A stretch of 64,000 nt of DNA from Luzula sylvatica (taxonomy: Eukaryota; Streptophyta; Magnoliopsida; Poales; Juncaceae), in the NCBI GenBank assembly GCA_946800325.1, contig OX326957.1:28615054-28679053 (forward strand). The letters are read 5' to 3'. Positions 381-56,157 of the stretch are shown here, one piece after another. A program made the translations under genes and the position numbers. The notes below the pieces were generated by a model. That model worked only from the letters and a program-made list of their open reading frames with translations. It was not told the DNA's origin and did no database searches. Within the stretch, counting starts at the first letter, position 1. Every line of letters starts with the position of its first letter.

Positions 381-540
381 TATCATTTTAATAGTGCAGG
401 ATTTTTTTAGCAATTAAACCCAACTAGGCTTTTTGCAATTTTGGCATAATCCAGGCTATTTTTGCAAATTACCATACAGTCGACTTTGAGCTGATTTTCC
501 GGATTAGTAGTTTCAGTAATCGACAAAAGAAAAAGAGTAA

Positions 541-549
541 TTGTAAAAA
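541..549. repeat. 9-bp target-site duplication, left (TTGTAAAAA)
   Basis: TTGTAAAAA directly precedes the element terminus GGGGAAATTTCTC and is repeated exactly at 3794-3802 directly after GAGAAATTTCCCC. A 9-bp duplication is diagnostic of Mutator-superfamily insertion. Confidence 0.9.
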
Positions 550-3500
550 GGGGAAATTTCTCATGTGTCCCTACTAAATTCATCAATTACATATATATCC
601 CTCTTAAGTTATTAATATCATATTTATCCCTACTAAATCTTATTAATATCAAATTTATCCAAAATTAACAATTCTGTTAAATTTAACAGAAAAATAATTT
701 AAAATGACTATTTTACCCCCTCATTTCATTAACCCTAACTTCAATAATAAAACCCCAAACCCGATAACATGCGACCACTCTATCTTCCCATCTTCATACT
801 GTCGTGAAGCTCTTCTCATGTTCATACACTGGTGCTCTTCTCTATCGTGAAGCTCAAGGAGGCAAAGATTCGGGGTATTAGCGAGGCGGTCTTGCGAGAC
901 GATCTGGTGCGGGTGAGGCGATCTGACAATTCCATCTTCTGGCGAGGTTTTCCCTTAGAGTGGTTTTCTCTTGGCGTGGTTTCTCCTGGCGAGGTTTGTT
1001 CTTATTTTGTTCTTGCGAGATTTCTATGTTGTTTGATTTTCTCTTGTATTTGCTCTTATTTTCTTCTTGTGAGTAATTTTGTTCAATTTGTTCTTTTTTT
1101 TGTTCAATTTGTTCCTGTTAGCAGTTTTGCTTCTATTTTGTTCGAATTTGAGAAGGAAAATTGGGCAATTGAACATTTTTATGGTAGAAGCATGAACAAT
1201 AGATCATGTTTATGGTTCAAGCATGAACAATTGAACAACGAACAAATTTTTGGTACGGGTTTATAATTTTATATATCTCCTTTTTGCTTATTTAGGCTCG
1301 AATTAACCGAAGCATGGTGAATACGAGTAACTGAATATCATCGAAGCTTAGACAATCAATGCTTGATATGGTAATACTTTTCTCCCTTTTTGCTTATTTA
1401 ATACAATTTTTACGATTTTTTCATTCATTTGGTGTATGATCCTTTCTAAATTAGGGGTTTAGGACACCCAATTTATTTTCGAACTGGGACAGAATGTTAA
1501 TAGACAATTGTGATTTAACTGGAGATCTCAATTATAGTTACTGTCCAGTGCAGTTGAACTGGAGAAGATCGCTAGGAATATCCAGAATTGTTTGCGAAGT
1601 TCTGGGCACCAGAAGGTCGATAATTGATTTATCTTAATAGTAAGTGTCAAATATGTTTTATATTCAACTGAATTTAGGGTTTAGTATAATATGCTGCATC
1701 TATAATTGATATTCATTACATGATAACAGAGAATATATTTGTTTATCAAATTTTATTTTAGCTTTATGTATATGTTGGATACATGCAACAAACAATTGAT
1801 GTGGATGGAGATGGAAGGCAAGCTAGATCATCATCAGGTAGTGAATGCTAGAGAGAGCAATAAGAAGAAAGGGGAGTGAGAGAAATGTAGAGCCCATTTT
1901 TTTTTCTTGATTTTGTCGTGTAATCACAATATAAATTTTCATGCTTATGGATGATCTTGTTTGTAACTCAAGTAAAGGATTCTTGGTATTTTATGAAATT
2001 CTCATTTAGCAGTAGGTCATTTTTTACTATTATTTACATTATGTTATGTTTTATTTTATTTTCATTTAGAATTGTTATGTTTTAATTCATAACTCATTTC
2101 ATTTGATTCAGTTTAATCAGTAAATTTGATGTATTTTGCATGTTCATGATATTATTAATTGTAATAATAGAGTTTGCATCTCAATCTAAGTTCCCACCTG
2201 GGATGAGTTCTCGCGACTTGATCGAGAGGAGGTTTGATGAAACAATTCACAACTCCTAAATAAAATAACTCAGAACAAACAAATCACAACTCTAGATATG
2301 TGTATAAAAATTCATGATTACATAAATATTAACCAAGGATTACATAAATTCTAGGCAAGATCATAACTCAAAATTACATAAATACTAGCTAAAGCTTCCA
2401 GTTTTTCCTCCATGCATATTATGCTTTTCGAGTAATTTTATCTGCACGAAATATTTGTTTCTTTTCCTCGATGTGAAAATTAGGGGTCTTAAAGTTCATC
2501 CTCGAAATACTTCCACTACCTATTTGAAACCAAAATGAAGATCATTTGTGTGCGGGCTCAAGTGCACTAGTTATCGCTGCGTATTTAAGTTCCAACTTCA
2601 AAATGGAGATAACATAATATTAGTTTTTCAGGAAAATCAAGCTGGATTATAGAGGAATAAATATGGGAATAAATATGAGCAATAGAAGGAAGATAAACCG
2701 CATGGCCAGTTCCGTTTTGGCAGCACTCAATGACGGGTTGAGAATCATGTCCTGTTTTTGCGAAGCATGTTTCCCAATCTTTGCATGTGTGGTTCACCAC
2801 CATAGTCTCCACGCAATTAATGAAACTGAAGTGCGCGTCCTGCAAAGTTTGCAATATTTAATAGGATAATTAATGTACATATCGATTTGTAAATGACAAA
2901 GATCATATCAACATTTTATAGTGTGAATCAAGATTAAATACTAGGGAGAAAAGTATTACCATATCGGGCCAAGAATTGATTGTCGAATCTTCAATGATAT
3001 TTAGTAAGCACTCATATTCACCATGCTTCAGAAAATTCTAGCCTAAATAAGCAAAAATGAGAGATATAAAATTATAAACTCATGCCATAAATTTGTTCGT
3101 TATTCAATTGTGCAAATGTTTGTTCAATTGTTCATGCTTGAACCATAAACATGTTCAACTTTCATGCTTCTACCATAAACATGCTCTATTGCCCAATTTC
3201 CCTTCTCAAATTCGAACAAAATAAGAGCAAAACTGCTAACAGGAACAAATTGAACAAAAAAAAGAACAAATTGAACAAAACTACTGTCTACTCACAAGAA
3301 GAAAATAAGAGCAAATACAAGAGAAAATCAACCAACATAGAAACCTCGCAAGAACAAAATAAGAGCAAACCGCGGCAAGAGAAAACCATGCCAGTAGTTG
3401 GAATCGTCGGGTCGCCTCACCCGCACCAGATTGTCTCGCCAGATCGCCTCGCCCATACCCCAAATCTTTGCCTCCTTGGGCTTCACGATGGAGAAGAGCA

Positions 3501-3793
3501 CCAGTGTATGAAGATGAGAAGAGCATCACGGAAGTATGAAGATGGAAAGATAGAGAGTACTCACATGTTATTGGGTTATCGGGTTTGGAGTTTTATTATT
3601 GGAGTTTTGTGTTAATGAATTGAGGGGTAAAATAGTCAATTCAAATTAATTTTCTGTTAAATTTAACCAAATTGTTAATTTTGGATAAATTTGATATTAG
3701 TAAGATTTAGTAGGGATAAATATGATATTATCAATTTAAGAGGAATAAATATGTAATTTATGAGTTTAGTAAGGATATAGGAGAAATTTCCCC
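550..3793. mobile_element. Non-autonomous long-TIR Mutator-like element (Pack-MULE)
   Basis: The 3244-bp element is bounded by a perfect 9-bp TSD (541-549 and 3794-3802). It has unusually long terminal inverted repeats of about 840 bp, 550-1385 and 2950-3793. Matching landmarks include GGGGAAATTTCTC at the tips, the block around 860-1010 with its mate around 3330-3490, and 'AAGCATGGTGAATA' near 1310 with its mate near 3015. The unique interior, about 1390-2945, holds a fragment of a GILT-like gene and otherwise AT-rich sequence. No transposase is seen, so it must be mobilised in trans. The TIR-internal reading frames at 832-1266 and 3151-3615 are the two strands of the same repeat and look non-coding. 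A related terminus flanks the copia element at 32834. Confidence 0.92.
2699..2839 (-). pseudogene. Captured exon of a GILT-like (lysosomal thiol reductase family) gene
   Basis: The minus strand reads DAHFSFINCVETMVV, then a WETCF motif, then a VIECC..GTGHA segment. The order FINCVE, WETCF, IECC/DCY, GxG is that of the middle of the gamma-interferon-inducible thiol reductase (GILT) family, which reduces disulfides in vacuolar or lysosomal compartments. The homologous segment starts right after a plausible acceptor (TTTGCAG|G) and ends at a plausible donor (GCG|GTTTAT), so it looks like a single captured exon of about 47 codons. The CxxC active-site exon is absent, so it cannot encode a working enzyme. 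It lies inside the MULE at 550-3793. The call rests on motif memory, not on an alignment. Confidence 0.6.
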
Positions 3794-3802
3794 TTGTAAA
3801 AA
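3794..3802. repeat. 9-bp target-site duplication, right (TTGTAAAAA)
   Basis: Exact copy of 541-549, directly outside the right TIR tip. Confidence 0.9.
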
Positions 3803-4085
3803 AAATTCCTTTTTCCTGAACTTGAAAACCTCCTCCGACAATATTGACAATTTGATGGGAATAATTATTAATTATACAATGCTTTCTTTTCCACCAATTT
3901 TATGGTGAACTAAAAAATGTGTTCTTACAATTTATCACTAGTCATTAATAACGAAAATAAAATTAGTGCCGAACTAACATCATTGATATTTCCCACTTAC
4001 AAGAACACAAAAAAAAAAAAAAAAAAAAAAACTCAAATCCCCCACCAAATTCTTTCAACAATTTCACTTTGGAAACTAAAAGTTA
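3803..4085. other. Region 3' of the B-box gene
   Basis: AT-rich spacer downstream of the minus-strand B-box gene, with a poly(A) run of about 23 bases near 4010-4031 on the plus strand (poly-T in the gene's own sense). No gene or repeat family recognised. Confidence 0.5.
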
Positions 4086-4601
4086 TCATACCATTTGCCG
4101 CAAATCAGATTGATCCATTCCATCCCTCTTCGACGTGGATCCTTCGCTACTCGACCCGTCGCTAACTTCCGGCGATCCGATCCTCCCCCACGGCACCACT
4201 TGATTATCTCCCTCCTCCTCCATTTCCATCTCCTCCTCTTCCTCCTCCTCCTCGTCCTGAGTCTCCTCGGTCTCGCACTCTTCTCCCTCGTCATTATCAT
4301 CGTTACTCTCGCTCTCGGTTTCGAAGCAACATTGAGGGCAAAGGGACACCGTAGGGGGTAGCCGTTCGCCCGAGGCCTTCCAAGCGGTGGGGCGGTGACA
4401 AGAACGGCAGAGCAAAGCTCGAGAGTGACGCGCTACGAGGAAATTGGCGCTGTGGACTCGCGAATCGCAGTCCCAACATAGCGTCGCATCGTCGGACTCG
4501 CAGTACGTTCGAGCTTCCCCGCTGCAGAGCACGCATTTCAAGCCGGTGTTTGTATTGGTTCGGTAATTCGTGTCCAATCTTGCTAATTTATTGTCTCCCA
4601 T
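4086..4601 (-). CDS. B-box zinc-finger protein (small BBX class)
   Basis: The 171-residue protein starts MGDNKLARL. An N-terminal B-box has spaced zinc ligands C23, C26, C34, C42, C45, H50 and H58, with the family string CWDCDSRVHSANFLVARH. A second, degenerate cysteine-rich segment follows at about 65-95 (LLCRSC ... SLCPQCC). The C-terminal half is strongly acidic (runs of E/D at about 100-135), then a Ser-rich tail ending RQMV. Plant BBX proteins bind zinc and act as nuclear transcription cofactors in light and flowering signalling. There is no CCT domain, so this belongs with the short BBX proteins that act mainly through protein-protein contacts. The start is the first Met of the frame, after a GA-rich leader in a pyrimidine/purine-biased upstream region (4602-4800). 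A GT at the end of the frame could be a donor, so a further exon is not excluded. Confidence 0.85.
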   Translation of the reverse strand: MGDNKLARLDTNYRTNTNTGLKCVLCSGEARTYCESDDATLCWDCDSRVHSANFLVARHSRALLCRSCHRPTAWKASGERLPPTVSLCPQCCFETESESNDDNDEGEECETEETQDEEEEEEEEMEMEEEGDNQVVPWGRIGSPEVSDGSSSEGSTSKRDGMDQSDLRQMV

Positions 4602-9835: not shown

Positions 9836-11509
9836 ACATGAATCCAAATAAAATTGAACGGTAAAAAATGTAAATTGTCACGGAGGATATTATTCAACGA
9901 ATTCAAAGTATCTTATCATAATATTATCTTGTATATATCAAAATATGCACTTATCACAAAAAAAAAAATCGTATTCAAATTATATAAAATGGATCCAAAC
10001 GTCCTAAAAACAAATACATAAGAAAACATAAAACAAAATTAAACAGTGTATATACAGATACAAAGTGGAATTAGAAGAGTTATGCATGTGTTAGAAATAA
10101 TTAAATCACTTTATTTAAATAGTTGATAGAGATTGGTATCATGCATCCTATAATTATTTTCTGCAAGTTAATCAAGATGATAAGGGCTATAATTAAAATT
10201 GTGCTTTCGAGGTTGGGACCAGTTTGGTGCAAGTCATCATTAATTTGGGTCTATTTTTTCTGGTCCGAGTAATTAGGAATATTTTCATGTGTACTTCCGC
10301 TAATAGAATATATTGAGTTTTGATAATTACTACAAATTGACATTAGGAATACAGAATCGCAGATAATATATTTTTTTAGTTTCTAACCAATACAGGATTT
10401 TTTTTTTTTTTTAAATAATAGGGCAGGGGATTTTTCCAGATATATTCCATAAATATTATATACAACCTGTGGTTCATCAACTTTTAACGAGCTCAACTGG
10501 TGAAGGCTTCTAACTAAATTATATAATACGAAAAGTATTTTTATGACACTAGTTTATTAATTTATATATACTATGGAGTTGATTCCCATACGGATCAACA
10601 ATATAATAAACTCGGATTCAAGTTGAACTAAATTAAGCCAAATAAATATTCACATTTTTTTAGAGAACATGGAATTCGGTTAATTCTTTTTTATTAACTC
10701 ATAATTATATTGTGAAAATGTATCGTCCGATTTTTTTTCATGGATATCAATGATGATCAATTTCACAATCTCTCACAATATATAATTTTTTTGTATTTCA
10801 TACTCAATCAAGTGAATTATGAATTCATTGACTGTCTCGTTTGAATTACATTTGCTTTTTTTTCTCGCATTGAGAAGAAATTGCTCTTAAATAAGCAGTT
10901 CATTAAAGTGATTTACTACACAATTTGATAGTTTGCATTATATTTGCATGTTATAGAAATGTTTGTCACGATATTGTCGATAACTAAAACAATAAGCATG
11001 AGTGTACCAGCTTTTTAAAATGTTCAAAAAACGTGAACATTCACACTTTCGGTATTTTTGACCTCATATAAAGAAGAGATGGTGTGTGATCACAACAACA
11101 TAAAAATGAATGAACTGATATAAAATTGTTCAAAAAAATTGATATTAAGATATCGGAGAAAATCAAGTAAATCAAATAATGATAATAATGCCAACAAATT
11201 TCTCTGATTTCTTTTTTAATATGACGCGAAAATAGTTAGTGTGTCGAGTCATATTACACTCTTTGGATCGGAATTGACGGAGCCGAGTGTCAGGTCAATA
11301 ACTGACTTCGCTAAGTACCTTTGGATGCCGTCAATGACGATGAGATCACAAGACTGTAGTGATTTTTTTTGTTTTATTTAAAAGATATAATTCAAGATGA
11401 ATATTTTATTCAAACTAACCAATTTGTGTTTTTTTATAATGATTTTTGTATTCAGTATAGTCGAGAAGATCAACCTGAAATTAACAAGGAAATGTTCTCT
11501 GGCCAAACA

Positions 11510-12160
11510 TGTAAATATTTAGTGTGATTAAATCATTATATCTTTTCGTTGTAATGCAATCCATAACTTGTTTCTAACTCTTTTTTTTTTGTAATGCAAG
11601 TATTCTGTGTTCAAAAGAAAAGCAGGAAAATTGGATAAGATATTCACTATGACACAAAAGGAATTAAATTTTTTTTTGTTGTTGAGAAAATAATAGAGTG
11701 GACTCAAAGTTCCACTTCTATTTTATATTGATCAATACATTTTACAAAGTTTTATAAGGGTCTTAGATGAAATATCCTAACCCCAACTTAGAGTTGTACT
11801 TAAGGCTTATGTCTCACAAATATTAAACACCACTAAAACTATTAGCCTTAGACAAAGTACAAAATAAATGATAAAAAACTATAACTTGAAATCCTTTGCA
11901 TGTTAATCCTTTCAATCCAGGAATTAAATATTTACCAAGGAAAATTGGAAAAGCAGGAAAATAGTTTGTGCCTTGTTTCAAACTCATTTCTTTTGTAATG
12001 CAATATAAAAGTAGTATATTTATAAGATTTGTTGTTCTTGATGTTTGTTTTTTGATAAAAATTGTGACTTTAAATTTGCAAGACCAATCCCTTTATTCTT
12101 CACATAGTTTCAATATCACCCTTAAAACTCCCTAAATACATATAGCTCTAAAAAATGAAA
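11510..12160. repeat. Inverted copy of the segment at 15380-15890
   Basis: Blocks such as 'CTTGTTTCTAACTC..TTGTAATGCAAGTATT' (11573-11610) and 'GATAAAAATTGTGACTTTAAAT' (near 12054) read in reverse complement at 15640-15830, and the block at 12080-12170 reads in reverse at 15380-15490. Internal rearrangement is evident: 'TTGTAATGCA' occurs twice, near 11590 and 11993. This is a third, diverged copy of part of the large palindrome. Confidence 0.6.
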
Positions 12161-12199
12161 AAAAAATTATATTATCAATTCCCTACAATTAAATATTAG

Positions 12200-12375
12200 G
12201 GGAATTCTTCAAAACCCCCTAACTTTTTTGGAAATTATGAAAAACCCCCTATATTTTTAGATTCCCTAAAAAACCTCTATATTCGTGGCTTTCTCCAAAA
12301 ACCCCCTAATATTTTTAGATTCCCTCAAAAATCTCCTATCTTTTTGTTATGATTTTGAAGATTATCATTATACCC
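12200..12375. mobile_element. Truncated MULE terminus (CCCCCTA/TTTTTAGA repeat type)
   Basis: GGGGAATTCTTCAAAACCCCCT followed by several 'AAAAACCCCCTATATTTTTAGA'-like units resembles the ends of the complete 881-bp element at 55268-56148. The opposite terminus is not visible, so this is a fragment. 12376-12700 is AT-rich with repeated 'AATAAATAATAAATAGATATTA' units, a low-complexity mirror repeat. Confidence 0.55.
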
Positions 12376-13045
12376 TTTTCCATAAAATTTTTTATAAATA
12401 TTTATAATTTAATAAATAATAAATATATATTAAAATACAAAAAATAAATAATAAATAGATATTATAATATTATAATAAATAACAAATAGATATTAAATTA
12501 TTATTATATATAATACATAGATATTAAAATATTATAATAAATAATACATAGATATTAAAATACTAATAATTGTTGAAAATGACATTTAATATCAATATAT
12601 TATTTATTATAATATTTTAATATCTATGTATTATTTATTATAATATTTTAATATTTTTTATTTTTTATTTTTTTTATAATAGTTTAATATCTATTAGAAT
12701 TAAGGTCAATCTTATTGTATAATGAAATACACAATATCACCATTTATTCCCATTCTGCATTGGTTTCATTATTATACCGGGGAATACAAAAATAATTTAC
12801 TAAAATTAATTAGAATTAATGTCAATCTTATTTACTTGATTTTCTCGAATATTTTAAAAGATTAAATTTCTTTTAACAATTCCACACTAGTCATTTATCT
12901 TTGAAGCTTTTGTGATCACAGTCACACACCATTTCTTATTTATATGAGTTGAAAATGCCAGAAGTGTGAATGTTCACGTTTCTTCAACATTTTAAAAAGT
13001 TGGTGCACTCATGCATGCTTATTGTTATCAACAATATTGTGACAC

Positions 13046-13102
13046 GCACAAATCGAGAAATGGCCCAAATTTTTTTGGCCTACGGGCAATATCATCCAAA
13101 AA
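13046..13102. mobile_element. 57-bp insertion with 16-bp direct repeats and an A-rich end
   Basis: AACAATATTGTGACAC occurs at 13030-13045 and again at 13103-13118. The intervening sequence ends in an A-rich stretch (CATCCAAAAAAAC) and is absent from the partner inverted-repeat arm near 10970-10990. A long direct repeat plus an A-tail fits target-primed insertion of a short LINE 3' end or SINE piece. Confidence 0.5.
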
Positions 13103-13507
13103 AACAATATTGTGACACACATTTCTATAACATGAAAACATAATGCAAAATATCAAATCGTGTAGTAATTCACTTTAATGAGTTGCTCATTTTAAGAACA
13201 ATTTCTTCTGAATGCGAGACATTCTCACAATTTAATTATGAGTTAATGCAAAAAAAATATGCTATGAACATGTCTCCTCTCAAAAAGAAAACATATTCTA
13301 GTTACAAACTATTTGTCATCACAAAATTAAAACTTATTCTAGAACTTATTATATTATATGAAGTAAAATGATACAATTACATAACAAATAGCCATATTAA
13401 CTAGAATAATTATTTGATCACTTCTCAATGGACCAATAATTCAGATAATTAAGTGTATATCACAAAATATCATATCTGATGAGTTCAATTTTTATTGACA
13501 CCATATA

Positions 13508-13722
13508 GAACTTTTGACAGCCTGAAACGAAATGCACGTGCATTTGGACTCGAGGCGTTGAGCGGCGAGGAACTAAAGGCTATGGTGAAAGAGGGGGACT
13601 TGGACGGAGACGGTGCGCTCGATCAGACTGAATTTTGCGTGTTGATGGTCAGGTTGAGTCCCGAGCTGATGAGAGGGCCTCAGGATGTGATCGATCGAGC
13701 TCTCGGAATTTTCAAAACCTAA
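13508..13722 (+). pseudogene. 5'-truncated copy of the PBP1-like EF-hand gene
   Basis: From TFDSLKRN to the stop it is nearly identical to residues 44-113 of the full gene at 20982-21323 (-). I count about three base differences in roughly 213 bp, one changing Ser-Asp to Ser-Gly just before the EF-hand. The EF-hand loop DLDGDGALDQTE is intact. The first 43 codons and the promoter are missing; sequence upstream of 13508 is unrelated. An upstream ATG at 13495 is in frame but adds only non-homologous residues. It forms the outer end of the left arm of the large inverted duplication. Confidence 0.85.
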
Positions 13723-14984
13723 GTGATAAGCACGTCATATTGTTACTCCATATAAATGCCCCGATTTCTATGACATGCATGTGTTGAACGAAATTTCATT
13801 TATCACATTTTTATTTAGGTACTAGCAAGTTTTTTTTTGTTATTTGGATTAGGTTTTATCTATAACTTGAGATGCTTATTTGCTTCAGATTCTTCTGTTT
13901 CTTTAAAATATGTTTCATTTTCTTAATAGCCCAAAATTAAAGTCGGTTATTGTATTGAACCAGTGAATTAAAAATGAGAGGGCCTGCTATATTTGAAAAA
14001 ACAAATGCTTTATTATAAGAAAAACCTGCCTTATTAAGCCCATAAACCGAACACAGGAACACAGTAACTATTAGGGGGATTTACATATTTTTACATATTA
14101 AAATAGTTAAATACAAACGTCTTCTCATAATTTAAAACAATAAATAATTTTTCTAATGAATTGACAAAAATGCTTAGTTAAACTTGTTTCTCAACCAAAA
14201 AAAATACACATTTTAGTCTGGGGGGATTGTACTTTGTCTCCACAACTCCTCTCTCCCATTTCGAAGAGAATTAGTGAAAGTAATTAACAACTCAATTAAC
14301 ATACACAAACAAATTAAACGTTAATTTCAACGTACCAATAAAAATACATGCTAATTAATCATTAATTCATTTTTACATATAAATTTGATGTTAATTTGAT
14401 ATTAATTGAGTTACTAATTCATCACTAATTATCAACACCACGATGTTATTTGACAACATCAAAGATAAAAAAACATGAATTGTGGGGACATAGTATATGA
14501 CTTCTTAGTTCTAAGTCTTATCATATATATGATCATCACACATTTTCATGTCCGACATACTTCTAGAAGCATATAGTCAAGGCTGGTCTCAACTGTAGGC
14601 CCAAAAAATTTAGGCTTCGGATTCAAAATTTGAAGGGGTCAAAAAATTTCGAAAAAATAATTTATTCAGTTAAAAATAAATATAATTACTAAAACTATTA
14701 AAAATCATAAAAAAATTGTGGTTTATTGATAGAACAAATACCTCTTTTGCGAGATGTTACATGCTCAAATTCTTACAAGTTAATAATTTAGAATTTCTTT
14801 TTACAAAAATACAACGATGAGAAAGTGATCTCGGTGATATTTGAACTTTACATGGATCTTTTCTAAAAAAAGCTTCAGATCCTTAAAATGCTGGGACTGG
14901 CCTGTAAATAGTTTTGTTCAAAAATATATATGTTCCCAATAAAAATCAATTGTTTTTTTTTCAAAAATATACTTTATATTTGAT

Positions 14985-15235
14985 ATGGTATTCTCATAAT
15001 ATGGAAAAGAACGATGATGCCATCACTACTGACATCATCCTTCTTTAATTGATTTAATAAATAACTTAATTGATAGTTTAATTTAATTGACACGATAATT
15101 AAAATTAATTGACGTGTCAATTAAAAATTCTTAATCGAATCAATTAAGAATGTTAATCAACTCACATAATTAAATGAAAATAATATTATGGATGTTGGGG
15201 TGAGTTTTGGAGACACCATATATATTTTCAGCACT
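14985..15235. mobile_element. MITE-like unit inside the arm, with dispersed relatives
   Basis: The unit ends in GGTGTTCTC / GGTGTCTCC-like inverted termini (right-arm copy 17030-17275). Its interior is rich in AATTAA words around a conserved GACGTGTCAATTAA. Related sequences lie at about 49380-49545 and 49920-50180, so it is a dispersed repeat that predates the inverted duplication. No clear TSD. Confidence 0.45.
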
Positions 15236-15500
15236 CTCAAAAGTCAGAACTACTCTCCCGGATTTTTGACATGTGGGATCCAATTCAATTTTTTTTAAAA
15301 AATCAGTATGTTTGAGATCCACATGCCATTCGCCAACGAGTTAAGGTGAGATGTGACTGATCATGACATTACTCTAATTAATTGTAGGGAAATGATAATA
15401 TATTTTATATTTTTTCTAGAGTTATACGTGTGTAGGGTTTTAATTTGTGAATTTTGAGCATAACACTGAAACTATGTAAAGGGATTAGTCTTGCAAATTT

Positions 15501-15659
15501 TATTTTGAATGGTATCCGACAAACGATCGCTTTCGTAACTGATATTTACATATATATATTTTTATTATGATGCTGATGGAATTTGAATCCATAAATTCTT
15601 CAATATATTATTTTATAGTGTCAAACACTCCATCACCGAGGCTATGGTACCATTTACAA
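15501..15659 (-). mobile_element. 159-bp SINE-like insertion with 12-bp TSD
   Basis: TCTTGCAAATTT flanks it exactly (15489-15500 and 15660-15671), and the related sequence near 12080 has this site uninterrupted. On the minus strand 'TAGCCTCGGTGATGG' resembles an A box and 'GGATTCAAATTCCATC' a B box, about 60 bases apart. A Pol III-like promoter with a long TSD fits a tRNA-derived SINE. Confidence 0.6.
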
Positions 15660-15671
15660 TCTTGCAAATTT

Positions 15672-16780
15672 GAAGTCACAATTTTTATCATAAAACAAAT
15701 TTTACAGACTTCCAATAATCTTCTTCAATAATTTTTTATGTTTTCCTTTTGAACGTGATGAGCTCATAATACTTGCATTACAAAAAAAAATGATTTAGAA
15801 CTTAGAAACAAGTTTATACAGATTTTATTAAAATGAGAAAATTTAGGGATTTAATCATAGTAAATATTATCAATGACTATTTAGTCTAGTAATAAATTGC
15901 TTAGCACAAGATACCAAATATTCGCGTCACATTGATATAAAAAATAAAAAATATCTATAATTCATGGATTAGGGTTCGCTTAAAAAAAGCATAGTAAATT
16001 TTTACTTGTTCTACTGTTTCAGTAGTGATTTTTTAGATGTATTATTCTCTTTTTGATTACCATGCCGGCTAAATACAGAAATCATTATAAAAGAAAACAA
16101 TGAACCATAACATAGTTGATTTAGCGTAATACACAAAAAATCGTATATTATGAAATTTTGTTGATTCAATTTTCATTAGCATCAACACATGAAAAACATA
16201 TAAGGCTTCTTCATATATTACAAAAAAAATAATCATTATAAAAACATTGATTGGCTAGCTTAAATTAAAGAATAAAAATTCATCTTGAATTACATCTTTA
16301 AAAAACAAAGAAAACATTATATGGGGTTTTTACAAAATTGTGGCACCATGTCTTGTGTGTATAAATACGATTAAAAAAAAGAATTACCCTATAGAGCTCT
16401 ATTAGCAGGTTCGAAACCTCCTCCTTGCAGGTTATTTTTGTCAAAAAATTAAAGTTCATTTCTGCATTGATTTTTGGCCGATTAACATTAAGAGTAGACT
16501 GATGGAGCATTTTTGCACGTAATCTTTTTTGGAATGAAAATTCTATATATTTTTTTTCAGCGCACAAACATTAAACCTGATATTAAAAAAAAAGATTTAC
16601 TCTCCAAATTTTACCCACCGAATTCTCCATTATGAAACTATTACATTTAATTAACGTGAAAATTAAAACTTATAATTAAATATTCATTAAAATTGATTAA
16701 AATTTATGAATTCGAATAAATGTTAATTATGTATTAAGATAACTTAGAATAAATGTTTAATTATGTTAATTATGTAGTTT
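15672..16780. other. Loop between the arms of the PBP1 inverted duplication
   Basis: Single-copy AT-rich spacer between arms, apart from 15672-15890, which has an inverted relative at 11510-12060, and 16150-16235, which matches the SINE tail seen at 9770-9830. The 89-codon frame at 16298-16567 has no recognisable domain. Confidence 0.5.
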
Positions 16781-18312
16781 CAGTGTTATGCTCAAAATTC
16801 ACAAATTAAAACCCCTACACACGTATAACTCTAGAAAAAATATAAAATATATTATCATTTCCCTACAATTAATTAGAGTAATGTCATGATCACTCACATC
16901 TCACCTTAACTCGTTGGCGAATGGCATGTGAATCTCAAACATACTGATTTTTGTAAAAAAATTGAATTGGATCCCACATGTCAAAAATCCCGGAGAGTAG
17001 TTTTGACTTTTGACAGTGCTGAAAATATATACATGGTGTCTCCAAAACTCACCCCAACATCCATGATATCATTTTCATTCAATTATGTAAGTTGATTAAC
17101 ATTCTTAATTGATTCGATTAAGAATTTTTAATTGACACGTCAATTAATTTTAATTATCGTGTCAATTAAAGTAAACTATCAATTAAGTTATTTATTAAAT
17201 CAATTAAAGAATGATGATGTCAGTAGTGATGGCATCATCGTTCTTTTCCATATTATGAGAACACCATATCAAATCAAATATAAAGTATATTTTTGAAAAA
17301 AACAATTGATTTTTATTGGGAACATATATATTTTTGAACAAAACTATTTACAGGCCAGTCCCAGCATTTTAAGGATCTGAAGATTTTTTTAGAAAAGATC
17401 CATGTAAAGTTCAAATCTCACCGAAATCACTTTCTCATCGTTATATTTTTGTAAAAAGAAATTCTAAATGATTAAGTTGTAGGAATTTGAGCATGTAACA
17501 TCTCGCAAAAGAGGTATTTGTTCTATCAATAAACCACAATTTTTTTATGATTTTTAATAGTTTTAGTAATTATACTTATTTTTAACTGGATAAATTATTT
17601 TTTCGAAAATTTTGGACCCCTTCAAATTTTGAATCTGAAGCCTAAATTTTTGGGCCGACTATCCTTGACTATATATGCTTCTAGAAATATGTAGGACATG
17701 AAAAGTATTGTGATCATATATATGATAAGACTTAGAACTAAGAGGCCATGTACCACAATTCATGTTTTTTATATTTGATGTTGTCAAATAACATCATGGT
17801 GTTGATAATTAGTGATGAATTAGTAACTCAATTAATATCAAATTAACATCAAATTTATATGTAAAAATGAATTAATGATTAATTAGCATGTATTTTTATT
17901 TGTACGTTCAAATTAACGTTTAATTTGTTTGTGTATGTTAATTGAGTTGTTAATTACTTCCACTAATTCTCTTCGAAATGGGAGAGAGGAGTTGTGGAGG
18001 CAAAGTAAAATTCCCCAATACTAAAATGTGTATTTTTTTTGGTTGAGAAACAAGTTTAACTAAAAAGCATATTTGTCAATTCATAAGAAAAATTATTTAT
18101 TGTTTTAAATTATGAGAAGACGTTTGTATTTAACTATTTTAATATGTAAAAATATGTAAATCCCCCTAATAGTTACTGTGTTCCTGTGTTCGGTTTATGG
18201 GCTTAATAAGGCAGGTTTTTCTTATAATAAAGCATTTGTTTTTTCAAATATAGCAGGTCCTCTCATTTTTAATTCACGGGTTCAATACAATAACCTACTT
18301 TAATTTTGGGCT

Positions 18313-18321
18313 ATTAAGAAA
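18313..18321. repeat. 9-bp TSD, left (ATTAAGAAA)
   Basis: ATTAAGAAA recurs exactly at 20706-20714. The empty site in the left palindrome arm (TTTCTTAAT, 13919-13927) proves the duplication was created by the insertion. Confidence 0.9.
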
Positions 18322-18938
18322 GGGCGATTATACTGTGGGACCATTTTTGAAAAGGGTATTTCTGGTATTGAAAATATGCATACGTAGTTTTTTGTGGTAA
18401 CCCTCCATTCTCAAAAAACAGGATATCTCCAATTATTCCAATTAATGTGAATTAGTGTCACTCTTTGCTTCTCCAACTTTGCATTCTTAATTAGGAATTT
18501 TTTTTTATAGACGACCATGAAACAATAATTACAAAAATAGACACTTCACAATCCAAATATGTATCAAAAATTTGTATTATTTAAAAAAATATATGTTAAT
18601 AAAAAAATGTCTCTTTTAAAAAACATTTCATATTTTACAAAATAATATATCTAAAATTATTTTATTTCGAAAAAAAAAGTAAAATATATACACACAAAAT
18701 TAATATATCTAAGTCGAAGTATGAATTATGTTTTCATTGTGTTAATATAAGAAACTAATCAACCATAATAATCTAACAAAATAACTAACAATATTTCAAA
18801 TATTGATTTTTCTAATTTTGAAATATTTTGTCTTTTTTATAATATTTACAAATATGAATTATATTCTTAAGATTTGAGATTTTCTACTTATTAGTAATGA
18901 AATTTAGCACGAAACTAGTTATGCAGAATATCCTTAAA

Positions 18939-19077
18939 CCAAATATCCATAATTTCATAATCAACCAAAATATCATGTATCCTTGATCAAATGTCCATAA
19001 TTTCATAGTGAACCAAAATATCATGTATCCCTAATCAAATAAAATATCCATAATTTCATAATCAACCAAAATGTCAT
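18939..19077. repeat. Tandem repeat, about 3 copies
   Basis: Unit of about 50-55 bp containing CCATAATTTCAT and CCAAAATATCATGTATCC, inside the MULE-like element. Confidence 0.75.
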
Positions 19078-19567
19078 GGATGATGATCCTAAAGGTAAGA
19101 AAAAGAAAAAATCAAATCCCCATCTCTCAAACAATTTAATATTAATTGATTTGGTACCATAGTTGGGCATCCAAATTATAACTTTAAGTTTCAATTTCAA
19201 ACAATTTAATATGAAAAATAAAAATTCGAACTATGGCTATAACAAATAGGTTATAAAAAGATTCGACACTGTATAGGTTTCCGTTTCGAAATCTTCATTT
19301 TGAAGTTGTAAATTTTCGGTTAATAACAAATATGCAACGAGAATATACCTATAATTTAATTTACTAACAAATATTGTTACAACACTTGCATAACATACAT
19401 TAATATATACACTCAATTACTCAAATTTAGCTTGTAAACACAGGATACAAGTTGAAACTCAATTACTCAAATCTGCAGCTTGCTTCTCTGTGTATCTCTG
19501 ATCTATCTCCAATTCTTCTTCTTTTCTCTCTCAATTTCTCTCCCCTCAATATTGAAATTTTCTCCTC

Positions 19568-19645
19568 ATGGCTGATCTGCCGCCAAATTTTCCTCTGGAA
19601 TCGGCCATCTTCTCCTCCCACAGGGCGAGGTGGATCTTTCTATAA
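19568..19645 (+). pseudogene. Possible captured 5' leader plus start of an unidentified gene
   Basis: A CT-rich leader (19455-19567) ends at an ATG opening 25 codons, MADLPPNFPLESAIF..., before a stop. The beginning resembles the N-terminus of plant F-box proteins (MADLPP...), but it is too short to assign. It sits inside the MULE-like element, so capture is a reasonable inference only. Confidence 0.25.
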
Positions 19646-20981
19646 TATTGAAATCTGCAAAGATGATTTATTAATTTGATTGATATCTAATTATACCACT
19701 ATCCATAAATAACCAATTACTAAGAACTTGCATTATTCGTGAATTATTGTTCTTCACATAAAAGGTTTAATTTTGGAAAACATAAAAAATGAAGGTTGTT
19801 TGAAAGAACAATTTCACAAATTAGAGCATACATCGCTGATTTTTTGCATTAACAAAAAAACCAAAAAATATGCAAATTAAAACTTCCAAATTATAATTTT
19901 TTTAAAAAGACCGAAATTATTGAAAATTATGAAATCAAACCCTCAAATTACCAACATTTTGCAAAAAGAACCTAACATTTCTGAAAAACCCAAGTTCATG
20001 TTTTTTGTTGCAATAAGCCTTCAATTGCCAAGAAATTCAAACTTCATTTGAACAGCATAAATTATAAGAGAGACTAATCAAGAATTTTGTAAGGCCTTTC
20101 CTGTGAAAATAACTTAATATCAGTCGAAGAATAAGCCTCAATCCATTGTTGTTAGTTCGCTTTCTCAGGCCTCATTTCATCGAATAGTCGGTACACAAAT
20201 TGAAAGAGAGGAAAATAGTTCGAATAGTCGATCCGTGAAGCTCTCTCTTCCATGTATGTGATCCCGTGAACCTATCTCCGAGCTCAGCTTCTTTTCCCTG
20301 CCCCCGTGAAGCGCTCTCTCTTCCTTTCTCTATGCCTTCGTGAAGTAAACCCTTGCTGAAAAGTAAATGCCGCGAGAGATCAGTTCCCTCTGAAAAAGAA
20401 CGATCGAGAGAGAGATATCTCTCTCTTAGGTTAATCGCCATTGATTTTCTCTTCTGAAAAGGAAAGCCTGCGGAGAGAGGGAGAAAGAGAGAAATGAAGC
20501 GTGTGTTACCAAAAAAAATAAGAGAGAATGACTGGAGGGGGACGTGTGCGAGTCTTTTGAGACTTGAGTGTGAGAGGGGTATTACCATTTTACCCTTTTT
20601 AACAAGGGGTCTACCTTAATTGAATTGAATCACAACCCTTGAATTGATTTGTTTGATTTGATCTTAATCATCCAATCAACAAAAAGTTCTACTGTAGAAT
20701 AACCCATTAAGAAAATGAAACATATTTTAAAGAAACAGAAGAATCTGAAGCAAATAAGCATCTCAAGTTATAACTAAAACCTAATCCAAATAACAAAAAA
20801 AACTTCCTAGTACCTAAAATCATTCTAAAATCATGAAAGAACATAACTGGTTAGCAAAGTTAAAAAATAGAAAAAAATTGATCCCCCCAATAAAAATGTG
20901 ATCAACGAAATTTCGTTCAACACACGCATGTCATAGAAATCGGGGCCTTTATATGGAGTAACAATCTGACGTGCTGATCAG

Positions 20982-21323
20982 TTAGGTTTTGAAAATTCCG
21001 AGAGCTCGATCGATCACATCCTGAGGCCCTCTCATCAGCTCGGGACTCAACCTGACCATCAACACGCAAAATTCAGTCTGATCGAGCGCGCCGTCTCCGT
21101 CCAAGTCCCCCTCTTTCACCATAGCCTTTAGTTCCTCGTCGCTCAACGCCTCGAGTCCAAATGCACGTGCATTTCGTTTCAGGCTGTCGAAAGTTATGAC
21201 GCCTCCCCTCGGGTCCATGAGTAGATCGAACCCTTTACATAACTCCTCCATTAGGCCCTCGCCGCCAAGTTGCGCGGCCATCGAAGGGAGAAGATCTTTA
21301 AAGAAAATCGAGTTATTTGCCAT
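20982..21323 (-). CDS. PBP1: PBP1-like calcium-binding protein with one EF-hand
   Basis: The 113-residue protein starts MANNSIFFKDLLPSMAAQLGG. It has an N-terminal PBP1/KIC-family segment (FxDLLPxMAxxLGGEGLxxELCxGF), then ITFDSLKRNA, then one EF-hand with loop D73-E84 (DLDGDGALDQTE) and the family tail EFCVLMVRLSPELM. PBP1 and KIC are small single-EF-hand proteins that bind Ca2+ and then a partner: the kinase PINOID for PBP1, a kinesin-like calmodulin-binding protein for KIC. Length and single-exon structure fit the family. The start is the first Met, about 55 bases downstream of a TATAAGA-like box at about 21378-21386. The C-terminus (ALGIFKT) is shorter than in the paralogue at 42694. Its 3' part and 3' flank are duplicated in inverted orientation at 13508. 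Confidence 0.92.
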   Translation of the reverse strand: MANNSIFFKDLLPSMAAQLGGEGLMEELCKGFDLLMDPRGGVITFDSLKRNARAFGLEALSDEELKAMVKEGDLDGDGALDQTEFCVLMVRLSPELMRGPQDVIDRALGIFKT

Positions 21324-23226
21324 TTCGTTGTGGATTATAAGATGAGTGAGTTATGAGTATGAACTCAAATCCTGGGTTCTTATACGAAAAGAAAGGAAGA
21401 GGGAAATTCCATCCAAGTTCTTCACTCTTTTGAAAAAGTAGTTTATATTCATGGCGGTTTATTTCATGTGGAGATAAGTTTAAATTGGGCTTAGCTCTTC
21501 TGAAATGCATCCTATAGAATACATTGTAAAAATAATAATAATGAAATTTATTTGTCATTTGTGAAGTTTTTGTTTTGTAAAAATTAAAATGTCCCCCCAA
21601 TAATTGCAAAAAGAAAAAATAGGATTTTAGAGGAGTCTTGCAGGGTTCAATTTCCGGAGAGTAGTTTTAAAATTGAAGCTTTTTCTGGGAAGCTACAAAT
21701 GTTCCACCTAAGCAAGTTCTATAGAAAGCCCAATTTTTTTTTAGTAATTTTTAGGGTTTGTAGAATAAAGTTGTTGGACTTTAAGGGTATCTTCAAAGTT
21801 AAAAAAGAGTGAAGTTACGGAACGAGAGACCTCAGAAACTTCTAACTTTCACATCGATTCCTCTCTTCTTCTTCTTTTTTTTAAATTTGAATACATTAAC
21901 AGCCTGACTTTTGACAAGATTTTAATCAAATAAATCAATTAGGTTTTCCACAAGTATTGTAATTTATGAAAATTAAGTGCTTATTAAATTTAAAAAATAT
22001 GACAAAATATATTTTAGACAGTGTATAGAAACTAGAAAATATGGGAAGTAAGTGAACTTCATACCACTAGCAAGAAGCAATATCGGAAGAAAAACATCAA
22101 ATATTAGAAAATTATTAGTGCACAAAATAGAAAAAAACTATATGAAATTGTGAAAAAGAATATATAGTTTTTTAAAAGCCATCGATTATGTAATTATCTA
22201 GAATAAAGTTTGATTGAACTTTTAATTTTTTGTTTGTTTGCAATTGTTGAACAAATTGTCTAATTTGTTAGGCGTAAAATATTCCAAATTCATTGGTTTG
22301 CAATTCAAATTAATATTATGAATTTATTGAAAAAACAAAGACAAAAAAGATTCATCACGTAACTGTATAGTTTGCTATAAAAAAACAATGCACATAATAT
22401 AAAATAAATTATATCATTCGTAATACATATCTATCGTCTAAATCATAAAAACTATGCATGGTTAATTACTACAAATTATCTAACCTATTTGTGAAATACA
22501 CATGACAATTCACCTTACAAATAAAATAACATCATAATTATTTTAAAAAGAGGTTCGAAAACTTAGCAAGTTCGGAGTGAAAAAAATGTAGAGTACGGTG
22601 AGAAGTTTCCATGAGAATGTTTCACTCCGAAAATCCACCAAATTATATTTTCTAGTTAATTTAATTTTTCCAGTTTAAAAGAGTTTAAAAGACCTGAAAC
22701 TGAAACTATGATTTCCAATTTGCAAATTCAAGATCCAACTTATGCATAATGTATCGAATCTCACAGAATCCTCCGACACAATTGCAACGAATTTGAATGC
22801 CACCCATTCAAAATCACATTTGTCATTCATACTATGAACAATCATGTGATATACATTATGAAAACCCCGAGAAACACTCGACAAAATAATAATAATAATA
22901 CCATTATTTTCTTAGCTTATCAGATATATGCCTTTCTTTATTAAATATTTTTTCTTAACTATTTGAAAATCAAGTAATGAATTTTTTAAGAACGCTAACG
23001 AAACTAAGAGCCTAAAGGTACCTTTCCCTATATGAACAAAAAAACTAGTCATTGTTTTCATAAAACCATTTTACACTTCTACAAGAGAACGACTCTCCCC
23101 TAAACGACTTACCAAAGAAAAAGAAGAAAAAAATAAATAAATTAAAAAAAAAAAACTTTCCTTTTTTGTTTTTGTTTTTCCTCACTCATGTTCTCTTTTC
23201 CATTTTTTCTTTACACTCACCAAGAA
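21324..23226. other. PBP1-like promoter side and AT-rich intergenic DNA
   Basis: 21324-21450 should hold the promoter and leader of the minus-strand PBP1-like gene. The remainder is AT-rich with no domain-bearing frame. The frames at 21313-21609 and 22675-22884 show no family features. Confidence 0.45.
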
Positions 23227-32910: not shown

Positions 32911-33172
32911 TATTGGAATATTTAGTTAGGCCTTAAATGTACTCTCATTAAGGCCCAATCCTTCTACTCAATTGTTATTGGCTGACACTTAATCACTCGG
33001 ATTAGAAATGATAGAAGGGTCAGGATAGTTTTAGAAGTAGTGCTTAGTAGTGGTAGTTATAAAAATAGTTATGTAACTAATCATTATAAAAAGCTTGTAA
33101 CAGTCCCTGATTAAAGTAATGAAAAAATCTTCCAACTCTAAACTTTCTAAACTCACTGTAATTATTCTTATA
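32911..33172 (+). repeat. 5' LTR of the copia element (262 bp)
   Basis: It begins TATTGGAATATTTAG and ends ATTATTCTTATA. Reading it against 37463-37724 I found no difference. The termini are TA..TA instead of the usual TG..CA; the boundaries are fixed by the TSD, the primer-binding site and the purine tract. Confidence 0.93.
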
Positions 33173-33182
33173 TGGTATCAGA
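33173..33182 (+). promoter_or_regulatory. Primer-binding site for initiator tRNA-Met
   Basis: TGGTATCAGA directly follows the 5' LTR. After ten bases it departs from the canonical ...GC continuation (AAAATT here), so the match is short. Confidence 0.8.
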
Positions 33183-33292
33183 AAATTTTAACTCACAGGA
33201 GTTCAAATTTCGATCCTCTTGATCTCAGAAATCCCACTTAGCATCTGTCCTTAGCTCTTGGGAATTTCATCACCGATCTCCCTGTTTTCAGT

Positions 33293-36200
33293 ATGGCTAC
33301 GCGAATTATCTCGTTTCAAAATCAAATTGCCACAAAATTCGATGGTTCCAACTTTCTAATCTGGAGTACTCAAGTAAAAGCCATCATTGGTGGTTTCGGT
33401 CTAAGCAAACACCTAACCGGTCTTGACGTCCCACCCGAATTCATTGCCGAAACTGCAAATCCTAATCCCGACCACCAAAAATATCTACAACAGGATCTCT
33501 TTCTCCAAGGATGGCTTCAATCCACCATGCACGAACAATGCATTGCTCACACACTCAATTGCACGACTTTGGCTGAGGTATGGCAAAATCTCACCTCTCT
33601 CTATAATACTACTACCTCAGCCACTCTTCTCGATGTGCTCTCTCGACTGGTTACTCTCCGCAAAGGGTCACAATCGGGTGGTGATTACTTTCGTCAAATG
33701 AAACAATACGGTGACTCTCTTGCTCAGTTAGGTTTTCCCCTTCCTGACTTTCTTGTTCCTCTCTTGATCCTCCGCGGCTTAGGTCCCGATTATAATAGCT
33801 TTGTCTCGGCTTTACTTACTCGAGCGAACCCTCCTACTCTTCAGGAACTTCATGGCCAGATAATCTCTCAAGAACATCGCCTTGCCGATCAGCTCGCTCA
33901 GGACTCTCCTCAAGCATTTCTCGCGGCTAAGAACCCCACTTCCAAGGGGTCACTTCCTCCAAGCCAAACTCTCTCTACTCTCGGTGTTCAAACACCGACA
34001 GATTCGGTTTCCAATGCTGGTTCACACGGACCACATCCATCCTCTCTTGAGTCCATTGTTTCCACTATGGGACACCTATTGAGTACCCAGTCAGCATCCA
34101 ATGCTGTCTCTCCCCAAACTACACCAGATTCTGTCTACAAACCCTTATGCGAAGCCTTTGCGGCCCAACTCTTTCGCAATCCCCGCGGTGGTAAATCGTA
34201 CCGTGGAGGTCGTGGTAAATATCGTGGTGGAAATTCCTCAAATACCTCCGGAACCACTCAACTTTTTTGTAAATATTGCCAACGCAACAACCATGATATC
34301 AAGACATGTTGGGCACTTCAAAAATATCTCAACTCACCAACCGAGCCTCAAGCCAACATGATTGAACGTACTCTCTCCTCTTCCTCGGATGGTTGGTATC
34401 TCGACTCCGGTGCTACTAACCATATCACCGCCAATCTTAACTCTCTCTCTACGTATTCTCCCTACCAAGGTAATGACCAAATTAAAGTGGCAAATGGTAA
34501 TGGTTTATCGATTCATAATGTCGGTACTTGTCTTCTTCCAACTAATCGACATAACCTTGTGCTCAATAATGTTCTACATGTTCCTAAGATTACCAAAAAT
34601 CTTATTAGTATTTCTCAATTTTCAAAAGATAATTCTATATCTTTGGAATTTAACCCATCTCTTTGTGTCATAAAGGATCGAGCAACCAATGAAGTACTCT
34701 TAGAAGCTTATCTCCAAGACGGTCTTTATCGTTTGGGCACCTCTTCCTCTCCTTCCAAAACGACGTTTCTAAGCGAGAAGACAACGGAAACCCTTTGGCA
34801 TCGTAGATTTTGTCATGCGTCATATCAAATAGTTCGTGATGTAATTCGCAAGTATAACTTAAATTGTAATTCTAACTCAAACGCGTTTTGCGATTCTTGT
34901 GCAATGGGAAAATCGTGTCGTTTACCGTTTTCTTTAGTGTCTTCTCGTTCTACTTCTCCTCTTGAACTTATCCACTCCGATGTGTGGGGACCCACTAAGA
35001 TCTCTTCACATTCCGGCTCGCGTTATTTTATCCATTTTACCGATGATTTTACTCGGTATACTTGGATCTATTTTCTTCACTCCAAGGATCAAGTTGCAAA
35101 TGTGTTTGCTCTTTTTAAGAGGCGCATTGAAAACCAACTTTCATGCACCATTAAGAGTTTTCAATGTGATGGTGGTACCGAGTTTCTTCCTTTACGACAC
35201 ATTTATCCCGAAATCACGTTTCTTCAATCTTGCCCTCACACGCCTCAACAAAATGGCCTCGCCGAACGAAAACATCGCCACATTGTCGAGCTTTCTCTAT
35301 CTACTATGGCTCAAGGTTCGATTCCTACTACCTTTTGGGATGATATTTTTTATAGTGTGGTTTATTTAATTAATCGTATTCCCAACAAAAACTCCACTAT
35401 CTCTCCATACGAATTACTTTTTAATAAACCACCTGATTATGAATTTTTGCGAGTTATTGGTTGCTTGTGTTTTCCTTACACAAAACCATATAACTCCCAT
35501 AAGCTTGAGAATCGATCTCTTCCATGTGTCTTTTTGGGGTATTCCCCGAATCACAAAGGCTACAAATGTCTCCACTTGCCAACCAACCGCCTCTACATTA
35601 GTCGTCATGTGGTCTTCAATGAGACGTATTTTCCTTTCGCCTTTCATGACTCTTTGCCACAACCCATTTCCTCTCCTTCATCCTCCTTGCACATCCTTGA
35701 TGACTCGCCTTCCGAGCCACTACCTCCATTGGTTCCACCTCCTCAACCTTCTCCTATCCTTGAGTCGCAACTTTCGCCACCAACCGCAACCGATCATCCC
35801 GCCACTTCCCATCATATGGTCACGCGCTCTCGGGATAATACAAGGCGCCCTCGCGTTTTTGCTAATCATGAGGTCTACTCATCCACCAAACATCCCCTCT
35901 CTACTTCTTTTGATGAAGTGGAACCCACATGCTTCACCGATGCTCAAAAGGATCCCAAGTGGCGCAAAGCTATGCAAGATGAAATTAATGCGCTCGTTCA
36001 AAATAATACTTGGACTCTTGTACCTTCTTCACCTCGCCACAATTCCATTGGTTGTAAATGGGTCTTCAAGATTAAACGAAATTCTAACGGATCTATTCAA
36101 CGATATAAAGCAAGACTTGTCGCTAAGGGTTATCATCAACAAGAAGGGATTGATTATACCGAAACTTTTAGTCCGGTTATTAAACCGACAACCATTCGAG

Positions 36201-37456: not shown

Positions 37457-37462
37457 GGGGGG
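37454..37462 (+). promoter_or_regulatory. Polypurine tract
   Basis: A run of G with TTGA before it sits directly upstream of the 3' LTR, overlapping the polyprotein stop codon; plus-strand priming site. Confidence 0.85.
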
Positions 37463-37724
37463 TATTGGAATATTTAGTTAGGCCTTAAATGTACTCTCAT
37501 TAAGGCCCAATCCTTCTACTCAATTGTTATTGGCTGACACTTAATCACTCGGATTAGAAATGATAGAAGGGTCAGGATAGTTTTAGAAGTAGTGCTTAGT
37601 AGTGGTAGTTATAAAAATAGTTATGTAACTAATCATTATAAAAAGCTTGTAACAGTCCCTGATTAAAGTAATGAAAAAATCTTCCAACTCTAAACTTTCT
37701 AAACTCACTGTAATTATTCTTATA
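37463..37724 (+). repeat. 3' LTR of the copia element (262 bp)
   Basis: Same length as the 5' LTR and no difference seen by eye. It would supply the poly(A) site. Confidence 0.93.
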
Positions 37725-37729
37725 TTATC
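37725..37729. repeat. 5-bp TSD of the copia element, right (TTATC)
   Basis: Matches 32906-32910. Confidence 0.9.
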
Positions 37730-55143: not shown

Positions 55144-55267
55144 CACAACGGTTGGACCCACCTCAAGCAGCGATCTTGAGCATCCAATTGGTCAATATCT
55201 GAAAGAGATATGAAATGAATATATAATAGTTGAATTTATTTGTTTTATTATAAACTATTATTAATTT

Positions 55268-56148: not shown

Positions 56149-56157
56149 TATTAATTT

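Follow-up and report, generated by a model that had tools for sequence, protein, structure and literature searches.

Here, we describe a local inverted segmental duplication in the wood-rush Luzula sylvatica that holds an intact EF-hand calcium-sensor gene and a truncated, dead copy of it. Its structure, the order in which a MULE-like element entered it and the decay of the truncated copy are established at the level of sequence comparison. We consider it probable that the intact gene is the sole functional product and that no hairpin RNA containing the gene accumulates. The features lie in the window, the whole 64,000-nucleotide stretch of DNA that was analysed:

10863 to 11201, minus strand: older inverted homolog of 12803–13219, 77–89% identical
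11363 to 12195, minus strand: older inverted homolog of 15375–16314, about 75% identical and patchy, continuing across the boundary of left arm and loop
13425 to 13510, plus strand: SINE-like head, reaching as far as the left outer breakpoint, with matches at 7 fetched sites (L025–L031)
13512 to 15474, plus strand: left arm, with the gene fragment and ~1.75 kb of 3' flank
13512 to 13722, plus strand: 5'-truncated gene copy, a pseudogene aligning from codon 43/44 to the stop
14213 to 14514, no strand assigned: high-copy dispersed repeat shared by both arms, given by its approximate left-arm limits
15475 to 16774, no strand assigned: 1.3-kb loop that runs on from the left arm and holds a SINE-like insert (~15501–15659) and a partial foldback repeat (16527–16772)
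16775 to 18321, minus strand: right arm, inner block, matching the left arm by self-BLAST
18322 to 20705, minus strand: MULE-like insert of 2384 bp with ends GGGTTATTCTACAGTAG / GGGCGATTATACTGTGG and a 9-bp target duplication, TTTCTTAAT
20706 to 21192, minus strand: right arm, outer block, covering the intact gene's 3' part and 3' flank
20982 to 21323, minus strand: intact single-exon EF-hand calcium-sensor gene of the KIC/PBP1 (KRP1) family, 113 aa
42694 to 43062, plus strand: linked, diverged paralog of the intact gene, 122 aa

The intact gene is one uninterrupted open frame of 113 codons in the list of open reading frames. Its protein matches Pfam EF-hand_8 at 67 bits, and the top PDB match is the KCBP-interacting Ca2+-binding protein KIC (3h4s_E, E 4.2e-32); 767 of 794 candidate proteins match at E ≤ 0.001, the best named ones coming from Rhynchospora, Cocos and Juncus. 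A length within ~110–125 aa and an EF-hand region with an intact calcium loop place it in the KIC/PBP1 (KRP1) family; reading by eye, we take DLDGDGALDQTEF to be that loop. Sequence does not make it obvious where the gene ends on its 3' side, because the first canonical AATAAA lies 1309 bases past the stop codon, within the MULE-like insert. Plant polyadenylation signals are loose, and looser hexamers of this type start 28 bases past the stop.

The pair of inverted copies is real. Self-BLAST of the window aligns 13919–15474 with 16775–18321 (94.5%, 1569 columns), 13509–13815 with 20889–21195 (96.7%, 307 columns) and 13814–13927 with 20706–20818 (96.5%), so that each of two arms carries a gene copy at its outer end, the copies lying tail to tail. 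The left outer boundary falls at 13509–13512, a few matching bases blurring the exact point. The original prediction had been of a full PBP1-like gene and a truncated near-identical plus-strand copy ending two mirrored arms of about 2 kb around a 1.3-kb loop, with a MULE in the right arm. Both gene copies, the loop, the left arm and the element (as MULE-like, with its target duplication) are where it put them; the right arm as a whole (16775–21192) is now 4.4 kb, not ~2 kb, because of the insert. A census of the window for inverted matches that span 150 columns or more and start within 12 kb of each other gives 12 rows, a small, non-random background in which some palindromes are counted twice; two of these rows belong to the arm structure, and they are the longest and the most similar. 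Among the 40 candidates scored out of 1286 in a search with the left arm, nothing appeared apart from both arms themselves and short repeats embedded in them, and 37 of the 44 matches listed there fall in 14213–14514. With all 4 candidates of a gene-query search also scored, we therefore describe a pair of high-identity, oppositely oriented arms at a single locus rather than a dispersed family.

The alignment of the arms that had been proposed for dating the duplication gives 64 substitutions over 1940 columns (K2P 0.034) and, leaving aside the insert with its target duplication, 13 indels; by our inference the age is perhaps 1–3 million years. Transitions and transversions number 31 and 33, without excess, and MULE-like copies used as a control behave alike (168/176, counted at four of five MULE-related loci, L013 being omitted as the same place as L012). 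The longest identical run between the arms is 172 bases, a length equalled in 15.7% of 2000 shuffles, so this longest-run test gives no significant indication that differences cluster as they would after gene conversion. Substitutions affect 3 of 211 positions in the gene part and 61 of 1729 in the rest of the arms; the difference is not significant (P 0.15) and gives no clear sign of a preserved match to the gene.

The left copy, a fragment of ~70 codons, is by its sequence a decaying pseudogene, since it lacks a start codon and each of the three coding differences from the intact gene is derived when polarised with the linked paralog. There is no in-frame upstream ATG, and in-frame stops lie upstream. 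The differences are TTC>TTT at codon 45, D62G, and GGC>GGT at codon 78; D62 is present in 118 of the 120 homologs listed. The insert resembles a non-autonomous MULE, with imperfect terminal inverted repeats starting GGG, copies elsewhere (a near full-length relative on C4 aligns over 5–164 and 253–2393 of 2393; others are partial) and TTTCTTAAT on both sides, at 18313–18321 and 20706–20714. The same 9 bp occur singly in the left arm, at 13919–13927. As the left arm thus keeps the empty site, the aligned arms indicate that the element entered the right arm after the duplication.

The breakpoints of the duplication involve SINE-like sequence and a truncated foldback repeat. On the left, we take 13425–13510 to be SINE-like from its tRNA-box-like sequence. 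On the right, a clean foldback-element terminus was considered for the inner breakpoint and rejected, as all three copies compared (L033–L035) run past the end of the copy in the window. The join of left arm and loop is old because the older inverted homolog (12195–12044) continues over it. Clues to the source arm oppose each other: the old join is on the left-arm side, yet it is the right arm that carries the intact gene. The alignments show recurrent inverted duplication events at this place, the older, more diverged ones overlapping the one described here; beside the 10863–11201/12803–13219 match, the only other long relative found is 71% identical and lies on C1.

In the explanation we favour, a local inverted segmental duplication would have copied the KIC/PBP1-type gene and its 3' flank tail to tail, and a break at codon 43/44 would have joined one gene copy to SINE-like sequence, leaving it to decay. 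The MULE-like element inserted into the other arm later. We infer that nothing but the intact gene yields a functional product and that read-through is lacking: transcription most likely stops soon past the gene, so that no gene-containing hairpin RNA would accumulate. The repeat-rich inner arms may carry methylation as other repeats do, without regulating the gene. Two observations count against this explanation, namely the distance to the first AATAAA and arms that pair well enough for long dsRNA.

How such an RNA would fold can be predicted. The original prediction that minus-strand read-through would cross both arms into antisense gene sequence agrees with the geometry, which runs from gene sense through both arms to gene antisense. 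With up to 3 mismatches allowed, every one of the 191 21-mers in the fragment has a match in the intact gene; the linked paralog matches 12 of these 191 and a paralog on chromosome 5 matches none. From the stop codon of the intact gene to the antisense fragment is 7.26 kb, through the MULE-like insert, and was 4.87 kb before insertion; the gene-bearing blocks are predicted to pair along 393 bases, the left block being 407. The inner hairpin is uninterrupted, lacks gene sequence and contains the high-copy repeat. Its predicted MFE is −2508 kcal/mol, compared with −805 for a single control of the same length; pairing with the left arm is predicted for 1495 of the 1547 right-arm bases, and 29 perfect arm-to-arm runs reach at least 21 bases. 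In silico, the arms within one transcript are thus capable of long dsRNA, and any read-through RNA would form it because they pair well. No Rfam match to a known RNA family or MIR gene was found in 12400–22000 at the gathering score, and none of 5 papers listed from the open-access literature deals, by title, with small RNA of Luzula.

These predictions invite the reading that the locus silences its own gene: minus-strand read-through would yield a 7.8-kb hairpin RNA, now or before the MULE-like insertion, and Dicer-like cutting would release siRNAs against the gene. The tail-to-tail geometry, the pairing of the gene-bearing blocks and the stable inner hairpin fit this, and there are precedents. 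At rice Lgc1 (LGC1), a 3.5-kb deletion between GluB4 and GluB5 created a silencing unit of inverted, tail-to-tail glutelin genes whose read-through would give sense and antisense RNA (PMC10647759), whereas the wood-rush copies stand far apart, with a MULE-like insert between them and one copy reduced to a fragment. Arabidopsis PAI1–PAI4, likewise a tail-to-tail inverted gene duplication, has documented siRNAs and non-CG methylation (PMC13213937); the wood-rush arms are 3.4% diverged and interrupted. VIM4–VIM2 of Arabidopsis Cvi-0, also an inverted gene pair with structural variation but laid out head to head, is 99.86% identical with read-through RNA shown, and its small RNAs are described as Cvi-specific, the copies being ~96 bp apart there and ~2.8 kb apart in Col-0 (PMC13213937). 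Two of the three silencing pairs compared, Lgc1 and VIM4–VIM2, were born by deletions that shortened the spacing. Against self-silencing, then, stand the distance between the wood-rush copies even before the insertion, an uninterrupted hairpin devoid of gene sequence and pairing in the gene part without significant preservation. The base rate is also low in rice, where 437 pseudogenes are found within 10 kb of the parent gene and 21 near pairs of this kind are listed as having significant siRNAs (PMC2708354), about 5% by our division; those pairs resemble ours in having a decayed copy near its parent and were chosen by small RNA counts, the wood-rush locus by sequence. We regard self-silencing as improbable, and equally so a proto-hairpin-RNA locus between birth and loss, in which the duplication, one of about three inverted duplications here, began to silence its own gene and the MULE is dismantling it.

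Somewhat less unlikely, yet still doubtful, is that the inner arms alone (13919–15474 / 16775–18321) are expressed from a repeat promoter, giving 24-nt siRNAs and methylation of the 3' flank while leaving the gene uncontrolled. The hairpin is uninterrupted and embeds a high-copy repeat, and its loop is about the size of that in one siRNA-making rice pseudogene hairpin (185-nt stem, 1283-nt loop; PMC2708354). The transition and transversion counts show no excess expected of methylation decay, a point that does not discriminate given the similar MULE control. Capture of the gene fragment by a transposon (Pack-MULE or Helitron) could be imagined from the MULE-like element in one arm and is very improbable: that element entered an arm that was already there, the empty site being kept in the opposite arm; no element end marks the passage from left arm to loop; and neither the four gene-query candidates, all scored, nor the 40 arm candidates scored out of 1286 included a third copy of the gene-fragment arm. 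Missed hairpin adapters or mis-joins can create long inverted repeats. We give such an assembly or library artefact almost no credence, because a read artefact would yield near-identical arms and no loop; here the arms are set apart by 3.3% divergence, 13 indels and a 2.4-kb insert that has a target duplication of its own. The published assembly rests on 33x HiFi reads at QV 59.9.

If the locus makes no siRNAs and is, as we favour, an ordinary inverted segmental duplication in which one gene copy is dead, it would be a useful negative, indicating that correct geometry and near-perfect pairing are insufficient. The recurrent inverted duplications also illustrate, on a small scale, how such structures originate beside foldback repeats. 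Were siRNAs made, the locus would ask how much spacing and insertion a silencing locus tolerates, and would provide a natural test of whether inverted gene duplications seed silencing loci in the Juncaceae, far from the model cases.

Self-comparison and alignment of the arms reveal a real and moderately young inverted duplication that carries a dead gene copy. This bears out the inverted-repeat structure of the original prediction, which had further proposed that a tail-to-tail duplication could yield a hairpin RNA and may silence its own gene. The features, the first three placed by self-comparison and alignment, are:

13512-15474, left arm
15475-16774, loop
16775-21192, right arm, insert included
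18322-20705, MULE-like insert of 2384 bp between the right-arm blocks, with TTTCTTAAT at both sides
20982-21323, minus strand, intact gene, one uninterrupted reading frame (113 codons)

Across 1940 ungapped columns the arm blocks differ by 31 transitions and 33 transversions (K2P 0.034). Their alignment also has 14 gaps. The 9-base gap at 13917/20716 corresponds to the extra target-site copy made by the insert, so that 13 true indels remain, the largest of 72 bases at 13814/20890. The original prediction had suggested dating the event from such an alignment; if plant rates from outside Juncaceae apply (6.5e-9 to 1.3e-8 substitutions per site and year), the divergence corresponds to 1.3-2.6 million years. 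Either arm may be the source. The inverted repeat does not look like a read artefact, given the 3.3% substitutions between the arms, the indels, the loop and the one-sided insert, and the 33x HiFi data from which lpLuzSylv1.1 was assembled (PMC11380069). In a census of inverted matches of at least 150 columns in the window (12 rows), the two rows of the duplication are the longest and most similar. Elsewhere, a second large inverted repeat (530-3813; 530-1387 / 2943-3813, 82%, 1.6-kb loop) adjoins an ORF at 4086-4601 that is B-box-like by eye, and 55260-56155 is a near-complete palindrome (896 bp, 72%) whose ends match 12191-12281.

The insert fits a non-autonomous MULE that arrived later than the duplication, in line with the MULE originally placed in the right arm: its termini are imperfect inverted repeats beginning GGG, and the flanking TTTCTTAAT pair is a single copy in the left arm (13919-13927), which lacks the insert. 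Genome searches covered 445,347,901 bases in 37 contigs, with the window at C2:28615054-28679053; the published Luzula sylvatica assembly lpLuzSylv1.1 comprises 36 scaffolds with a total of 444.5 Mb, not counting organelles (PMC11380069). Among 40 of 586 candidates scored, C4 carries a near full-length relative of the insert, which aligns at 89-92% with bases 5-164 and 253-2393 of a 2393-base query, and partial relatives lie on C3, C4 and elsewhere. The window also holds a young retroelement at 32911-37725, whose 263-bp direct terminal repeats (32911-33173, 37463-37725) are 100% identical and enclose one open frame of 1387 codons; judged by eye from its motifs, it is copia-like.

The label PBP1-like is fair for the intact gene, because its protein has an EF-hand pair match, the solved structure closest to it is that of the KCBP-interacting calcium-binding protein KIC (3h4s_E, E 4.2e-32), and 767 of 794 candidate proteins match at E <= 0.001, the top named ones among the best 120 listed being from Rhynchospora, Cocos and Juncus. 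DNA searches of its own genome returned four matches (4/4 candidates scored): itself, the truncated copy in the left arm (the fragment), a paralog on C5 (70%) and one at 42.8 kb of the window (75%). This linked paralog (42694-43062) is a second KIC/PBP1-type gene of 122 aa, 21 kb away in opposite orientation. The fragment is a pseudogene, with no in-frame upstream ATG and with in-frame stops a short way upstream. It differs from the gene at three bases, two of them silent (TTC>TTT at codon 45, GGC>GGT at codon 78) and one causing D62G. In the linked paralog codon 45 is TTC, codon 62 GAC and codon 78 GGC, indicating that each of the changes took place in the fragment. Position 62 is D in 118 of 120 listed homologs. 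We see no clear selection for keeping the match between fragment and gene, because differences in the gene part of the arms (3/211) are not significantly rarer than in the rest (61/1729, P 0.15).

At the left outer break, gene codon 43/44 is fused to 13425-13510, a short dispersed sequence with matches at 7/7 other sites compared, which looks like a tRNA-derived SINE head. At the right inner break the arm abuts 16527-16772, a partial foldback repeat with many copies across the genome (40/1572 candidates scored). We ruled out an element end here: 3/3 examined foldback copies extend beyond the point where this copy stops, indicating a rearrangement break. No break separates the left arm from the loop: an older inverted homolog (12195-12044) aligns with 15375-15500, passes over a SINE-like insert with TTGCAAATTT repeats at its bounds, and resumes at 15660-15699. 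The older pair 15375-16314 / 12195-11363 has its full partner only at this locus, its remaining matches being an embedded repeat (40/143 candidates scored); for a further pair, 10863-11201 / 13219-12803, the search gave a single 71% relative, on C1, besides short repeats elsewhere (23/23 scored). Because of these two older pairs, inverted duplication probably recurred here. They lie within and beside the young one, across 10863-16314, with partners mostly confined to the locus, a possible hotspot of inverted duplication adjoining foldback repeats.

In silico, the locus could form a hairpin RNA. Folding covered the inner part and the gene-bearing blocks as separate pieces of the putative 7.8-kb transcript. 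The minus-strand inner part has a predicted energy of -2508 kcal/mol, versus -805 for one equal-length control stretch of slightly lower G+C, and 1495 of 1547 right-arm bases are predicted to pair with the left arm; between the gene-bearing blocks, pairing could extend over 393 bases (407 in the left block). Putative fragment siRNAs would target the intact gene, hardly the linked paralog and not the C5 paralog, since 191/191, 12/191 and 0/191 fragment 21-mers, respectively, match with at most three mismatches. Two facts limit the hairpin idea. The uninterrupted inner hairpin (13919-15474 / 16775-18321) is free of gene sequence and partly high-copy repeat, at about 14213-14514, where 37 of 44 listed left-arm matches fall (40/1286 candidates scored). 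Reaching antisense gene sequence from the stop codon takes 7.26 kb of transcription, a distance that was 4.87 kb until the MULE inserted; AATAAA first appears 1309 bases past the stop, within the insert, and looser hexamers are present as early as 28 bases past it. Transition/transversion counts as a sign of methylation decay (31/33 in the arms, 168/176 in a MULE control) do not discriminate, as the control has no excess.

Known silencing pairs set the expectation. In rice LGC1, a 3.5-kb deletion put GluB4 and GluB5 tail to tail and led to silencing (PMC10647759); at VIM4-VIM2 of Arabidopsis Cvi-0, whose copies are 99.86% identical, siRNAs followed a deletion from ~2.8 kb to ~96 bp (PMC13213937). 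A deletion is not needed in every case, since PAI1-PAI4, a tail-to-tail silencing repeat from an inverted duplication, is described with no deletion mentioned in the available text (PMC13213937). Among rice gene-pseudogene pairs with significant siRNAs, 21/38 lie within 10 kb, compared with 437/11,956 pseudogenes overall, an enrichment according to the authors (PMC2708354); by our division, 21/437, or about 5%, of near pairs in any orientation produce siRNAs. By analogy with these cases, self-silencing of the locus would be highly improbable. The silencing idea is well formed, with support that stops at geometry; the duplication belongs structurally to a known kind and is most likely functionally inert.
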